From assembly GCF_003660455.1 (NCBI RefSeq), contig NZ_QZVR01000002.1, positions 1 through 64,000 of the forward strand: 64,000 nt of DNA. Direction: 5' to 3'. The position numbers and the translations under genes are program-made. The DNA is from Nocardioides ferulae. GTDB lineage: Bacteria; Actinomycetota; Actinomycetes; Propionibacteriales; Nocardioidaceae. How positions within the stretch are numbered: position 1 is the stretch's first letter; every line of letters starts with the position of its first letter. The notes below the pieces were generated by a model, which saw nothing but the letters and a program-made list of their open reading frames with translations, had not been told where the DNA came from and did no database searches. Below are positions 63 to 30,395 of the stretch, one piece after another.

Positions 63-84
63 ACGTTAGAGGCGACCACCGACA
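63..84 (-). promoter_or_regulatory. RecA-NDp (PafBC-type DNA-damage) promoter of the left-edge gene
   Basis: On the minus strand CTGTCGGTG is followed by an 8-base spacer and TAACGT, six bases before the ATG. The known actinobacterial RecA-independent damage promoter is TTGTCRGTG-N8-TAnnnT. Here eight of nine upstream bases match and the spacer is exact. Damage inducibility of this gene is inferred. Confidence 0.65.
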
Positions 85-24826: not shown

Positions 24827-26224
24827 GTGAAGAGCGCCGTCGAGACCTTGAGCCCGACTCGGGCCAAGCTGACCGTCGAGGTGCCCTTCGAGGAGCTCAA
24901 GCCGAGCCTCGACGCGGCGTACAAGCAGATTGCCCAGCAGATCAACGTCCCGGGCTTCCGGCGCGGCAAGGTGCCGCCGATGGTGATCGACCGTCAGGTC
25001 GGCCGTGGCGCCGTGCTCGACCAGGCGATCAACGACGTGCTGCCCAAGAAGTACGTCGAGGCGCTGCAGGCCAACGACCTGCAGCCGCTGGCCCAGCCGG
25101 AGATCGAGGTGACCAAGTTCGAGGACAACCAGACCCTGGAGTTCACCGCCGAGGTCGAGGTCCGTCCCGAGATCGAGCTGCCCGACTACGACGGGCTCGA
25201 GGCCCAGGTCGACGACGTCACCGTCACCGACGAGGACGTCGAGGAGCAGGTGCAGTCGCTGCGCGAGCGGTTCGGCACCCTCGTCGACGTCGAGCGCGCC
25301 GCCGCCGAGAACGACTTCGTGGTGCTCGACCTCAAGGCCAGCAAGGACGGCGAGGTGCTCGAGGGCGCCGAGGTCTCCGGCATGAGCTACCAGGTCGGCC
25401 GCGGCGGCATGATCGACGGGCTCGACGAGGCCCTGACCGGGATGTCCGCGGGCGAGGACAAGACCTTCGCCTCCCAGCTGGTCGGCGGTGACCTGGTCGG
25501 CGAGGAGGTCCAGGTCGAGGTGACCGTCAGCCAGGTGCAGGAGCAGCAGCTGCCCGAGGTCGACGACGAGTTCGCCCAGCTCGCCTCCGAGTTCGACACC
25601 GTCGAGGAGCTCACCGCCGACGTGCGTGAGCGGCTGGGCCGGGGCAAGCGCCTCGAGCAGGCCGCCGAGGCCCGCGACGCGGTGCTGGAGGCCCTGCTCG
25701 ACAAGGTCGAGGTCCCGCTGCCCGAGCACGTCGTCACCGACGAGCTCAACGCCCGCCGCCAGAACATCGAGCAGCAGCTGATGATGGCCGGCATCACGAT
25801 GGAGAAGTTCCTCGAGGACGAGGGGCAGACCATCGAGGAGTTCGAGGCCGACCTGGACCGCCGGGTCCGTGACGCCGTCGCCGCGCAGTTCGTGCTCGAC
25901 GAGGTCGCGAAGAAGGAGGAGTTCGGGGTCAGCCAGCAGGAGCTGTCCGAGCACCTGGTGCGGCGCGCCCAGCAGTCGGGCCAGAACCCGCAGGAGTTCG
26001 CCAACCACATGTTCGAGCACAACCACATCCCCGAGCTGGTGCAGGAGGTGCTGCGCGGCAAGGCGCTGGCCCGCATCGTCGAGGCGGCCGTGGTCAAGGA
26101 CGCCTCGGGCAACGTGGTCGAGTTGAAGAACCTGCGGCCCGACGGCACCATCGGCGAGCCTGAGGACGAGGGCGCCGAGGCCGAGCAGGCCGACGAGTCC
26201 GCCGAGGAGCAGACCGAGGCGTGA
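24827..26224 (+). CDS. tig: Trigger factor (ribosome-associated chaperone, peptidyl-prolyl isomerase)
   Basis: This 465-residue protein has the ribosome-binding signature NVPGFRRGKVPPMVI near residues 40-55. An FKBP-type PPIase domain at about 155-245 contains NDFVVLDLKASKDG and then IDGLDEALTGMSAGE. The long helical C-terminal chaperone domain ends in an acidic Glu/Ala-rich tail. It binds nascent chains at the ribosome exit. TAGGAG stands seven bases before the GTG, unlike many leaderless neighbours. It lies upstream of clpP1P2 and clpX as in most bacteria, here separated from clpP1 by one hydrolase gene. A strong hairpin follows. Confidence 0.96.
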   Translation: MKSAVETLSPTRAKLTVEVPFEELKPSLDAAYKQIAQQINVPGFRRGKVPPMVIDRQVGRGAVLDQAINDVLPKKYVEALQANDLQPLAQPEIEVTKFEDNQTLEFTAEVEVRPEIELPDYDGLEAQVDDVTVTDEDVEEQVQSLRERFGTLVDVERAAAENDFVVLDLKASKDGEVLEGAEVSGMSYQVGRGGMIDGLDEALTGMSAGEDKTFASQLVGGDLVGEEVQVEVTVSQVQEQQLPEVDDEFAQLASEFDTVEELTADVRERLGRGKRLEQAAEARDAVLEALLDKVEVPLPEHVVTDELNARRQNIEQQLMMAGITMEKFLEDEGQTIEEFEADLDRRVRDAVAAQFVLDEVAKKEEFGVSQQELSEHLVRRAQQSGQNPQEFANHMFEHNHIPELVQEVLRGKALARIVEAAVVKDASGNVVELKNLRPDGTIGEPEDEGAEAEQADESAEEQTEA

Positions 26225-26258
26225 CGCCGCGGAGCCCCTGGCTTCACCCTGACGATCG

Positions 26259-26289
26259 AGCTCCCGCCGGGCCCCGCCCGGCGGGAGCT
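26259..26289 (+). terminator. Strong GC-rich terminator after tig
   Basis: AGCTCCCGCCGGG and its exact complement form a 13-bp stem with a five-base loop, 35 bases after the tig stop. Flanking GACGA/TCGTC extends the pairing. It separates tig from the hydrolase gene. Confidence 0.8.
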
Positions 26290-26343
26290 TCGTCGTCCGG
26301 GAGGGTTCCGCGCGACCCCTGCGACGTCGTAGCGTTCGGCCGC

Positions 26344-27555
26344 ATGAGCGCCGCGACCAGCCCGCCCGCGCACGAGCCCGGCGTCCTCGACGCGCTGGCG
26401 CTGCTGGGCCACGCGACCGAGGAGTTGCTCGTCGGCGGCATCCGCGACACCCACCATGCCTGGGCCGACCGCGTGCACGGCGTCGTGCGCGAGGCCACCG
26501 GTGGCGCCTCGGCGGTGCCGGAGCTGGCGCACCGCGCGATCTCCTCGGCGGTCTTCGCCGGTGTCGGCGCTGGTCTGCGCACCGCCTCCCACGGCCTGGA
26601 CCGGCTCGGTCGTCGCGGGCACGGGCCCCGGCTCGAGGCCACCCCGCGGGGCAGGTTCGTCAGCTCGGCGGTCAACGGGTTGATCGGCGACCGGCTCGTG
26701 CGGGAGCGGCCGCACCTGGCGTTCCCGATGGCGGTCCGCAGCGAGGGGCGCGACGTCCCGCTCGAGCCGGCGGCGCTGGCCCGGGCCTTCCCCGAGGCCG
26801 CCCAGCGGATCGTGGTCTTCGTGCACGGGCTCTGCGAGAACGAGAGCTACTGGCGGCACCGGCGGGCCGAGCGGGGCCCGACGTACGCCGAGGCGCTGGG
26901 CGCCGAGGGCTGGACACCGGTGATGCTGCGCGCCAACACCGGGCTGGGGGTCCGCGAGAACGGGGTCGCGCTCTCGTCGCTGATGCAGCGGCTGGTCGAG
27001 CACTGGCCGACCGAGGTCGCGCGGATCGCGATGATCGGGCACTCGATGGGCGGCCTGGTGATCCGGGCGGCCGGCGCGGTGGTCGACGCGGAGCCGGGGG
27101 AGCGGCGCGGGCCGGCTGGGGCCACGGACTGGACCCGGCTGGTGAGCGACGTGGTCACGCTGGGCACTCCCCACCTGGGTGCGCCGATCGCGCGGGGCAT
27201 CGGCCACGGCAGCCGGGCGTTGAGCCGGCTGCCGGAGACGGCGGCGATCGGCCGGTTCCTCGACTGGCGGTCGGCGGGGGTGCACGACCTGGTCGCCGGG
27301 CTCGCCGCGGACGTTCCGCCGATGCCCCGGGCGCGCTACCGGCTGGTGGCGGCCACGGTCACGGGATCCCCGCGGCACCCCGTCGGGCACGTGGTCGGTG
27401 ACCTGCTGGTGCGGGTGCCGTCGGCCTGCGGGCACGACCGGCACGGCGTCGAGCTGTTCCCGGGGGCGGAGGTCCTCCACGTGGGCCGAGCCGACCACTT
27501 CGATCTGCTCAACCACGCCCACGTGCATCGAGCCCTGCGGTCGTGGCTGGGCTGA
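26344..27555 (+). CDS. Alpha/beta hydrolase, lipase/PGAP1-like
   Basis: This 403-residue protein has a predicted helical N-terminal region of about 150 residues. A lipase core follows: IVVFVHGLCENESYW with the oxyanion His-Gly, nucleophile Ser in IAMIGHSMGGLVIRAA near residue 233, then VVTLGTPHLGAPIARG, and the terminal His in HVGRADHFDLLNH. Similarity in pattern is to PGAP1-like esterases acting on lipids or polyesters. No signal peptide is present. TAGCGT lies eight bases before the ATG, so the transcript may be leaderless. It sits between tig and clpP1; whether it belongs to protein quality control is unknown. Confidence 0.85.
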   Translation: MSAATSPPAHEPGVLDALALLGHATEELLVGGIRDTHHAWADRVHGVVREATGGASAVPELAHRAISSAVFAGVGAGLRTASHGLDRLGRRGHGPRLEATPRGRFVSSAVNGLIGDRLVRERPHLAFPMAVRSEGRDVPLEPAALARAFPEAAQRIVVFVHGLCENESYWRHRRAERGPTYAEALGAEGWTPVMLRANTGLGVRENGVALSSLMQRLVEHWPTEVARIAMIGHSMGGLVIRAAGAVVDAEPGERRGPAGATDWTRLVSDVVTLGTPHLGAPIARGIGHGSRALSRLPETAAIGRFLDWRSAGVHDLVAGLAADVPPMPRARYRLVAATVTGSPRHPVGHVVGDLLVRVPSACGHDRHGVELFPGAEVLHVGRADHFDLLNHAHVHRALRSWLG

Positions 27556-27592
27556 CAGGCTCGGGGGTGTACGGGGCGGCGTCGATGAAATC

Positions 27593-27606
27593 CGCTGTCG
27601 GCGAAC
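27593..27606 (+). promoter_or_regulatory. ClgR-type operator upstream of clpP1
   Basis: On the minus strand the site reads GTTCGC-CGACA-GCG, matching the actinobacterial ClgR pattern GTTCGC-N5-GCG. GATACT, a good -10, lies at 27614-27619, so a bound activator would sit near -35 of an upstream clpP1 promoter. Confidence 0.65.
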
Positions 27607-27627
27607 AGGGGCGGATACTCCGTGGAG

Positions 27628-27650
27628 TTGTCGGTGACTGCGGCTAGGGT
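27628..27650 (+). promoter_or_regulatory. clpP1: RecA-NDp (PafBC-type DNA-damage) promoter of clpP1
   Basis: TTGTCGGTG, eight bases, then TAGGGT match TTGTCRGTG-N8-TAnnnT in every specified position. The -10 ends seven bases before the GTG start, so this promoter would give a leaderless clpP1 mRNA. Damage induction is inferred from the motif. Confidence 0.75.
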
Positions 27651-27657
27651 CGCAAGC

Positions 27658-28314
27658 GTGAACCAGAACCTCAGCGACTCCCTCGACGCCCGGAGCGCCC
27701 AGATGAACGGGGCGGCGGGCCTAGGCGTCCTCGACGACCACATCTACCAGCGCCTGCTGCGCGAGCGCATCGTGTTCCTCGGCTCCGAGGTGCGCGACCA
27801 GAACGCCAACGCGATCTGCGCGCAGCTGCTGCTGCTCTCGGCGGAGGACCCCGAGGCCGACATCTTCTTGCACATCAACAGCCCGGGCGGCTCCGTCGAC
27901 GCCGGCATGGCGATCTACGACACGATGAACTACATCCCCAACGACGTGGCCACGGTCGCGATGGGGTTGGCGGCCTCGATGGGCCAGTTCCTGCTCTGCG
28001 CCGGCACCAAGGGCAAGCGCTACGCGCTGCCGCACGCGCGGATCATGATGCACCAGCCCTCCTCGGGCATGGGCGGCTCCGCCTCCGACATCAAGATCCA
28101 GGCCCAGCAGTCGCTGCACATCAAGCAGGTGCTGCTCGACCTGATCGCCGAGCACACCGGCCAGTCGCGCGAGCAGGTCGAGACCGACGCCGACCGCGAC
28201 CGCTGGTTCACCGCCGACCAGGCCCGCGAGTACGGCCTGGTCGACCAAGTCATCAAGAGCGCACGCGAAGCAGCCGACGACGGCCGCCCGGCCCGGCAGA
28301 AGGACTCGAAGTGA
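27658..28314 (+). CDS. clpP1: ATP-dependent Clp protease proteolytic subunit ClpP1
   Basis: This 218-residue serine peptidase has Ser107 in [14 protein letters not shown], His132 in [14 protein letters not shown] and an Asp near 181 (TDADRDRW), the complete ClpP triad. Actinobacteria use two ClpP proteins forming a mixed 14-mer with ClpX or ClpC. The GTG at 27658 lies seven bases after TAGGGT in a damage-type promoter; an ATG at 27703 is an alternative giving a shorter propeptide. A ClgR-type box and second -10 lie further upstream. Its stop overlaps the clpP2 start by four bases, so the two subunits are co-translated. Confidence 0.96.
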
Positions 28315-28919
28315 ACTACTACATCCCCCAGTGGGAAGAGCGCACCTCCTACGGCTTCCGGCGCATCGACCCCTACGCCAAGCTCTTCGAGGACCGCATC
28401 ATCTACCTCGGCACCCCGATCTCCGACGACGTCGCCAACGCGGTCATCGCCCAGCTCATGTGCCTGGAGTCGATGAACCCCGACCAGGACGTCCAGATCT
28501 ACATCAACTCCCCGGGCGGCTCGTTCACGGCGCTGACCGCGATCTACGACACGATGAACTTCATCAAGCCCGACGTGCAGACCGTGTGCATCGGGCAGGC
28601 CGCCTCGGCGGCCGCGATCCTGCTCGCCGCCGGCACCCGCGGCAAGCGGATGGCGCTGCCGAACAGCCGCATCCTGATCCACCAGCCCTACACCGAGGGC
28701 ACCTTCGGCCAGACCTCCGACATCGAGATCCAGGCCAATGAGATCCTGCGGATGCGCGAGCTGCTGGAGAAGATGATCGCCGACCACAGCGGCCGCTCGG
28801 CCGAGCAGGTCAGCCACGACATCGAGCGCGACAAGATCTTGACCGCGGCGCAGGCCGTCGACTACGGCCTGATCGACACCGTGATCGAGTCCCGCAAGGG
28901 CACTCCGGCCCTGGCCTGA
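28311..28919 (+). CDS. clpP2: ATP-dependent Clp protease proteolytic subunit ClpP2
   Basis: This 202-residue subunit has Ser99 in [14 protein letters not shown], His near 124 in [11 protein letters not shown] and the Asp in [12 protein letters not shown]. It starts at a GTG overlapping the clpP1 stop (GTGA), ensuring equal expression. In mycobacteria ClpP1 and ClpP2 are both needed for the active complex, and ClpP2 is the ring that docks the ATPase. The short N-terminal extension ([21 protein letters not shown]) is usual for the second paralogue. clpX follows 192 bases later. Confidence 0.96.
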
Positions 28920-29111: not shown

Positions 29112-30395
29112 GTGGCACGCATCGGTGACGGAGGCGACCTGCTGAAGTGCTCTTTCTGCGGCAAGAGCCAGAAGCAGGTCAAGAAGCTGATCGCCGGCCC
29201 CGGCGTCTACATCTGCGACGAGTGCATCGACCTGTGCAACGAGATCATCGAAGAGGAGCTCAGCGAGGGCAGCGAGGTCGGTCTCGAGGAGCTGCCGAAG
29301 CCCCGCGAGATCTTCGAGTTCCTCAACTCCTACGTGATCGGCCAGGAGCAGGCGAAGAAGTCCCTCGCCGTCGCGGTCTACAACCACTACAAGCGGGTGC
29401 AGGCCGGGCTCCAGCCGGTGGCCGGCAAGCACAGCAAGGACGAGTCGGTCGAGGTCGCCAAGTCCAACATCTTGGTCATCGGGCCGACCGGCTGCGGCAA
29501 GACCTACCTCGCCCAGACGCTGGCTCGCATGCTCAACGTGCCGTTCGCGATCGCCGACGCGACCGCGCTCACCGAAGCCGGCTACGTCGGTGAGGACGTC
29601 GAGAACATCCTGCTGAAGCTGATCCAGGCCGCCGACTACGACGTCAAGAAGGCCGAGACCGGCATCATCTACATCGACGAGATCGACAAGGTGGCCCGCA
29701 AGGCGGAGAACCCCTCGATCACGCGAGACGTCTCCGGCGAGGGCGTCCAGCAGGCACTGCTGAAGATCATCGAGGGCACCACCGCCTCGGTGCCGCCCCA
29801 GGGCGGACGCAAGCACCCGCACCAGGAGTTCATCCAGATCGACACCACGAACATCCTGTTCGTCGTCGGCGGCGCGTTCTCCGGGCTCGAGCACATCGTC
29901 GAGCAGCGGGTCGGCAAGAAGACGCTCGGCTTCACCGCCGAGGTGCGCGCCCACGCCGAGGACGAGGCCGACGACCTGCTGGCCCAGGTGCGCCCCGAGG
30001 ACCTCACCAAGTTCGGCCTGATCCCCGAGTTCATCGGCCGGCTGCCGCTGATCGCCAGTGTCACCAAGCTCGACCAGGAGGCTCTGGTCCAGATCCTCAC
30101 CGAGCCCCGCAACGCGCTGGTCAAGCAGTACCAGAAGCTCTTCGAGCTCGATGGGGTCGAGCTGGAGTTCACCGACGACGCGATCGCGGCGGTCGCCGAC
30201 AAGGCCATGGAGCGCGGCACCGGCGCTCGCGGCCTGCGGGCGATCATCGAGGAGGTCCTGCTGCACGTGATGTACGACGTGCCCTCGCGCGGCGACGTCG
30301 GCAAGGTCATCGTGTCCGGTGAGGTGGTCGAGGGCCGAGAGGCCCCCACCCTGGTCCTGCGCGAGTCCGAGACGAAGAAGAAGAAGTCGGCCTGA
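29112..30395 (+). CDS. clpX: ATP-dependent Clp protease ATP-binding subunit ClpX
   Basis: This 427-residue AAA+ unfoldase starts with the ClpX zinc-binding domain (Cys13, Cys16, Cys35, Cys38 in CSFC ... CDECIDLC). Walker A is GPTGCGKT near residue 122 and Walker B is IIYIDEIDK. The RKH region [20 protein letters not shown] lines the pore, and [10 protein letters not shown] precedes the sensor-2 domain. It unfolds tagged proteins and feeds them to ClpP1P2. GAGGAGG lies about ten bases before the GTG. It is separated from clpP2 by 192 bases with a hairpin, so it is probably transcribed separately. Confidence 0.97.

Follow-up and report, generated by a model that had tools for sequence, protein, structure and literature searches.

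The clpP1P2 operon of Nocardioides ferulae appears to be served by a single leaderless promoter that would be controlled by ClgR and that, in this species, would also receive an input from PafBC; we give this model as a whole a probability of roughly two in three. In the mechanism that we propose, ClgR would bind a GTTCGC-N5-GCG box near position −60 and help the housekeeping RNA polymerase at a promoter that has a TAGGGT −10 element and no canonical −35 element, with the mRNA beginning at or next to the GTG start codon. The spacer contains a PafBC −26 element that is complete and exactly in register with TAGGGT, and PafBC activated by single-stranded DNA would probably act as a second, damage-dependent input at the clpP1 start site.

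The promoter lies in a window of 64,000 nucleotides, the whole stretch of DNA analysed here, which corresponds to positions 1–64000 of contig C2 in a genome of 4.75 Mb and 68 contigs; judged by ClpP1, the closest named relatives belong to Nocardioides. Three genes on the plus strand follow it: clpP1 (27658–28314), with its GTG at the predicted start site of a leaderless mRNA and a family match, and clpP2 (28311–28919) and clpX (29112–30395), each recognised by an open reading frame and a family match. Family searches placed a gene for a DUF676-type alpha/beta hydrolase (26221–27555) between tig and clpP1; for M. tuberculosis, the cited portion of PMC3613350 gives tig as the neighbour of clpP1.

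On re-reading of the sequence, all of the letters and coordinates that an initial annotation had assigned within 27593–27660 were in place. The ClgR-type operator (27589–27607, minus strand) contains GTTCGC-N5-GCG at 27593–27606, reads CCGCTGTCGGCGAACA on the plus strand at 27592–27607, and has its centre ~60 bp upstream of where transcription is predicted to start. Downstream of it on the plus strand, the sequence CGTGGAG (27621–27627), which includes a CGTGG block that was family-specific in our samples, occupies the place of a −35 element, and is followed by the −26 element TTGTCGGTG (27628–27636), an exact match to the complete RecA-NDp/PafBC sequence. The −10 element TAGGGT (27645–27650), recognised by its conservation in the genus and by comparison with the TAGTGT of M. 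tuberculosis, completes the arrangement TTGTCGGTG-N8-TAGGGT, which spans 27628–27650, and the GTG (27658–27660) lies seven bases after TAGGGT, as had been claimed. No promoter of the TTGACA/TATAAT type was found in 27500–27720.

We compared clpP1 upstream regions at three levels. From the genus we took 110 of the 116 genomes with a clpP1 match (leaving out G004, G027, G031, G048, G102, G107 and the second copy in G017); L114 had no anchor and its stand-in L184 was anchored in clpP2, which left 109 anchored regions, in all of which the promoter was located. The family sample comprised 26 of the 50 genomes outside the genus with a match (L191, anchored in clpP2, was dropped), and for the class we used the best-scoring 23 of the 79 matching genomes from beyond the family. 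The −10 element was sought 35–52 nt from the ClgR box with a preference for TAGNGTC-like sites, a procedure that favours agreement but not one particular spacing. One region was not located at each of the two wider levels: L187 in the family, within the 35–52 nt allowed and though the letters of both the box and the −10 element are present, and L234 in the class, where the contig begins.

The ClgR-type box proved to hold a nearly fixed place at all three levels, which bears out its assignment in the initial annotation. The sequence GCGAACA occurs in 108 of the 109 genus regions, as does YGC-N5-GCG, and the strict form CGC-N5-GCG in 72, the source genome among them. The distance from GCGAAC to the −10 element is 44 nt in 107/109 genus regions and 43 nt in the other 2; measured from GCGAACA, it is 44 nt in 22 and 43 nt in 3 of the 26 family regions, and 44 nt in 13, 45 nt in 8 and 38 nt in 1 weak case of the 23 class regions. 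In the 109 genus regions, the −10 element itself is TAGTGT (55 regions), TAGGGT (38) or a different TANNNT (16), and the GGC immediately 5′ of it is conserved at 99% in genus columns. The columns of the CGTGG block are conserved at 93–100% in the genus and 92–100% in the family, and are unconserved in the class sample. Support for the ClgR box comes from this conservation, since matches to the bare ClgR core do not exceed chance in the window (4 versus a mean of 2.99 in shuffled sequences). By our own comparison, the box departs at one position from the consensus given in the cited part of PMC2905415; searched across the genome with up to two mismatches, the box pattern gave 551 matches versus 143 for the control and is too loose for a regulon list. 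In M. tuberculosis, mutagenesis described in the portion of PMC3613350 cited here indicated TAGTGT as the −10 element of clpP1P2 and CGC-N5-GCG as an activating site. The simplest reading of these patterns is a single ClgR-driven clpP1 promoter that would have become leaderless in Nocardioidaceae, and a ClgR promoter with TAGGGT as its −10 element and a start at the GTG is, on the sequence evidence, very probable in the source species.

The same comparison bears on two other promoter assignments. The initial annotation had proposed two stacked promoters, in which the ClgR box and a GATACT −10 element (27614–27619, plus strand) are separate from the damage promoter. Although GATACT is indeed present, the exact hexamer occurs in 1 of the 109 genus regions, at least four of six matches to TATAAT are found at that place in 3/109 and TANNNT in 0/109; moreover, the ClgR box would sit at about −26 of a start site set by GATACT, and its spacing is instead nearly fixed to the downstream −10 element. 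We judge GATACT to be no promoter element and stacked promoters to be extremely improbable. Because GATACT is found only in the source genome and the box is fixed to the downstream −10 element, both inputs would share one start site. An ECF sigma factor promoter (of the SigH/SigR type, GGAA...GTT), as for the clp genes of Corynebacterium glutamicum, is also very improbable. GGAA occupies −21 to −18 relative to the −10 element in 66/109 genus regions, and SigH controls clp genes in C. glutamicum according to the title of a cited paper; against this, the source genome has GTGGAG and not GGAA, and the TAGTGT of M. tuberculosis was matched to the housekeeping sigma factor (PMC3613350, in the part cited). 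GTT occurs around the −10 element in only 1/109 regions, on which count we ruled this candidate out.

The start codon of clpP1 keeps a similarly tight relation to the −10 element, lying 7 nt beyond it in 96, 6 nt in 12 and 5 nt in 1 of the 109 genus regions. The stretch from the start codon to the conserved ClpP1 core ranges from 63 to 108 nt, with 16 different lengths, and is a multiple of three in 108 of the 109 regions, with a stop codon in 1; the one exception in frame is apparently L131, where a TTG located two bases upstream of the GTG was taken as the start. That the distance stays a multiple of three despite 16 different lengths establishes that the stretch from the GTG is coding. In the family, the start codon lies 5–8 nt past the −10 element in 25/25 located regions; in the class it is this near in 2 of the 22 located regions only. 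A leaderless clpP1 GTG, as had been put forward for the source species, is thus supported in the genus and the family, not in the class, with the transcription start site predicted at the GTG from the −10 element seven bases away. Alternatively, clpP1 might not be leaderless and might instead begin at an in-frame ATG (27703) behind a 45-nt leader. A GGAG does precede that ATG, and some in-frame ATG lies between start and core in 96/109 genus regions, but the stretch upstream of it is coding by the argument given above, and CTC replaces the ATG in some relatives (for example, L040–L044). We rejected ATG 27703 on these two grounds and consider a start there highly unlikely.

The source genome carries genes for both of the regulators that the single-promoter model invokes. 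The ClgR candidate (L170:1468–1788) is encoded directly 3′ of a CinA gene and matches ClgR structures in the PDB (5woq, E 5.8e-24; 3f51, E 6.6e-18), with a score of 110.5 bits against the NCBIfam ClgR model, which is under the cut-off of 170; no clgR gene was seen in the 18 kb around recA. PafB is likewise encoded (PDB 9fnd, E 7e-60; 6sj9, PafBC, E 1.8e-43), and a second WYL match ~0.8 kb past pafB was read as pafC from its frame. According to the part of PMC11804915 cited here, the PafB subunit of PafBC contacts the −26 motif and the PafC subunit contacts sigma domain 4. PafB is encoded in 118 of 118 genus genomes.

Other Clp genes of the source genome have regulatory sequences of their own. 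Upstream of clpC (L387, C3:75670), GTTCGCTGTGAGCG precedes TAGGCT with no −26 TGTC, and the ClgR-type box GTTCGC-N5-GCG there has the opposite orientation to the clpP1 box. A second clpP pair (C1:280747–281903) adjoins a gene for an XRE regulator (L149:3963–4319, on C1, minus strand), the protein product of which ends in LAA and shows a weaker likeness to ClgR (75.3 bits versus 110.5 for the ClgR candidate). We take this regulator to be PopR-like. Its own upstream region contains the palindrome GTTCGCCCACCGCGAAC, then TAGCGT, and then an ATG six bases on.

The damage element before clpP1 is complete in the source genome, as the initial annotation had stated, and the match is beyond chance: TTGTCRGTG-N8-TANNNT occurs 3 times in 4.75 Mb versus 0 times for a reversed-pattern control. 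Such genome-wide odds overstate the rarity of the element at clpP1, whose promoter family often contains TGTC and TAGGGT in any case. With the leading T omitted, the pattern TGTCRGTG-N8-TANNNT has 13 exact sites in the genome; with one mismatch allowed, it has 100 versus 10 for the control, which was run for this shorter pattern only at that setting. Within the window, 2 RecA-NDp elements with at most one mismatch were found versus a mean of 0.28.

Eleven of the 13 exact sites lie 6–8 nt before a start codon, the genes concerned being clpP1, uvrB, dnaX, an ABC transporter gene, a PD-(D/E)XK nuclease gene, a glyoxalase-like gene and five DUF222-type genes; the other two lie 75–80 nt before genes for a solute-binding protein and dnaB. 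(Family searches supplied the names of the nuclease gene, the glyoxalase-like gene and one DUF222 gene; the other genes at these sites were named from sequence.) One-mismatch sites precede putative uvrC, recA, SbcD-like and radical SAM genes, again read from sequence. So far as can be judged from sequence, RecA-NDp sites in the source genome look like a class of leaderless promoters. The putative dnaB and dnaX genes (L007, L018) have their exact sites 80 nt and 6 nt before a start codon, respectively, hinting that these replication genes may belong to the damage regulon of this genome. The sites before the five DUF222-type genes, which are presumably 13E12-like, are near-identical to one another (window positions 63–84 on the minus strand, C1:377872, C4:248548, C8:63 and C20:35618). 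Two of the five are at contig ends that truncate their genes, identified here from the initial bases; the repeats may be a cause of breaks in the assembly.

Among clpP1 orthologues, the two motifs of the initial annotation fared differently: the ClgR motif was kept, but the full damage motif was not. At the −26 position, TGTC is present in 75, TGTCRG in 20 and complete TGTCRGTG in 7 of the 109 genus regions (L038, L039, L054, L088, L101, L120 and L134). As a benchmark we used the uvrB promoter, with uvrB named from sequence; a match was present in 115 genus genomes, of which 70 were taken, and the spacer is 9 nt in 2/70. There, TGTC is in register in 68/70, TGTCRG in 67/70 and the complete element in 48/70. 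The fractions 7/109 at clpP1 and 48/70 at uvrB differ with Fisher P 4.5e-19 (relatedness ignored), and since PafB is encoded in all 118 genus genomes, a lost regulator is not the reason why the element is unconserved. The four TGTC columns (81, 91, 72 and 87%) contrast with the spacer behind them, and TGTC is found at −26 in 11/25 located family regions and 0/22 located class regions, two class members having near forms in register (CGTCGGTG in L212 and GGTCGGTG in L229). In a further set of 80 named loci, of which 47 were located, 30 were weak and 3 had no anchor, and some of which are records of genomes already counted (L320 is, by its length, the same contig as L120), the complete element occurs in Nocardioides sp. 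B-3 (L317) and isolate RYN_210 (L320), and TGTC in Kribbella antiqua (L331) and Planosporangium (L385). The −26 TGTC is probably functional in Nocardioidaceae, where it may serve as a weak contact for PafBC, be read by some other factor or act at the level of the polymerase.

Among the 75 promoters with TGTC, the RGTG half is poorly kept (A or G in 32%, then G in 76%, T in 44% and G in 36%), and because it is unconserved, the PafBC part of the model could reflect the chance completion of a common TGTC. The promoter might then be one for ClgR only, with TGTC serving the ClgR/housekeeping promoter or another factor and the complete TGTCGGTG conferring little response to PafBC. Independent columns would yield 2.9 complete elements in 75, and the complete elements are scattered, their 7 cases needing 6 changes on a tree that is weak (134 rows of 105–540 bases each) and on which TGTC itself changes 25 times. 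Yet the 7 complete elements seen are a mild excess over 2.9 (P 0.026, relatedness ignored), the match at clpP1 in the source genome extends to the exact register and the leading T, and a complete element would be expected to be read by PafBC whatever its origin. We regard chance completion at a ClgR-only promoter as a serious possibility, if on balance a doubtful one.

Another explanation is that the −26 TGTC is a second contact for ClgR, which would itself read the RecA-NDp motif. Such a role was reported for mycobacteria (Wang et al. 2011, as cited in the relevant parts of PMC5656591 and PMC3776920), and CTGTCGG recurs in both the ClgR box and the −26 element of some promoters, such as L048 and L052. 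However, clpC of the source genome combines GTTCGC-N5-GCG and TAGGCT with no −26 TGTC, the located class regions keep a ClgR-like box in the absence of TGTC, and the portion of a later review cited here assigns RecA-NDp to PafBC (PMC8223512). We consider a second ClgR contact unlikely, and rejected the view that ClgR promoters in general include TGTC, on the evidence of clpC and the 22 located class regions.

We return to a ClgR promoter with an added PafBC input. Such an input at clpP1 is plausible in the source species and would be at most optional in the genus; taken by itself, we put a real response of clpP1 to PafBC in the source species at even odds, judging from sequence. A broader proposal, which we make only tentatively and think rather improbable, is that TGTC, as the core of a PafBC −26 element, is under selection at the clpP1 promoters of Nocardioidaceae, that a few substitutions would switch damage control of Clp proteolysis on or off between species, and that it is on here, where ClgR and PafBC would co-activate the leaderless start.

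In the literature collection searched, no paper joins Nocardioides, clpP1 and promoter. Control of Clp by ClgR and the damage response of PafBC are already known separately, and the sources in the parts cited here offer one overlap, M. smegmatis ClpP1. Proteome data for M. smegmatis with pafBC deleted give ClpP1 at −1.6, and ~80% of the changed proteins were independent of the damage promoter (PMC5656591, in the portions cited); the cited portion of the M. tuberculosis clpP1P2 promoter study leaves mitomycin unmentioned (PMC3613350). If ClgR and PafBC share one start site, Clp-mediated protein quality control would be wired directly to DNA damage. Independently of this, two blocks specific to the family, CGTGG and TGTC, belong to this ClgR-type clpP1 promoter and go without mention in the portions of the M. 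tuberculosis literature cited here.

The arrangement described here resembles three known or related systems in part. The clpP1P2 promoter of M. tuberculosis shares a ClgR-type CGC-N5-GCG box 5′ of a TAGTGT −10 element (PMC3613350 and PMC2905415, in the parts cited); its box lies ~96–100 bp from the start codon, as compared with ~60 bp here, and, unlike at that promoter, the start codon here falls almost on the predicted start site and there is a TGTC at −26. The uvrB promoter of the same genus shares with clpP1 a leaderless-like organisation and the pattern TGTC-N12-TANNNT. Mycobacterial RecA-NDp/PafBC promoters such as recA P1 share tTGTCRgtg-N8-TAnnnT in exact register, PafB, and the lack of a canonical −35 element. 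Unlike promoters of the recA P1 type, the promoter described here has an RGTG half that is unconserved among orthologues, contains a ClgR box, and has a protease operon as its target.
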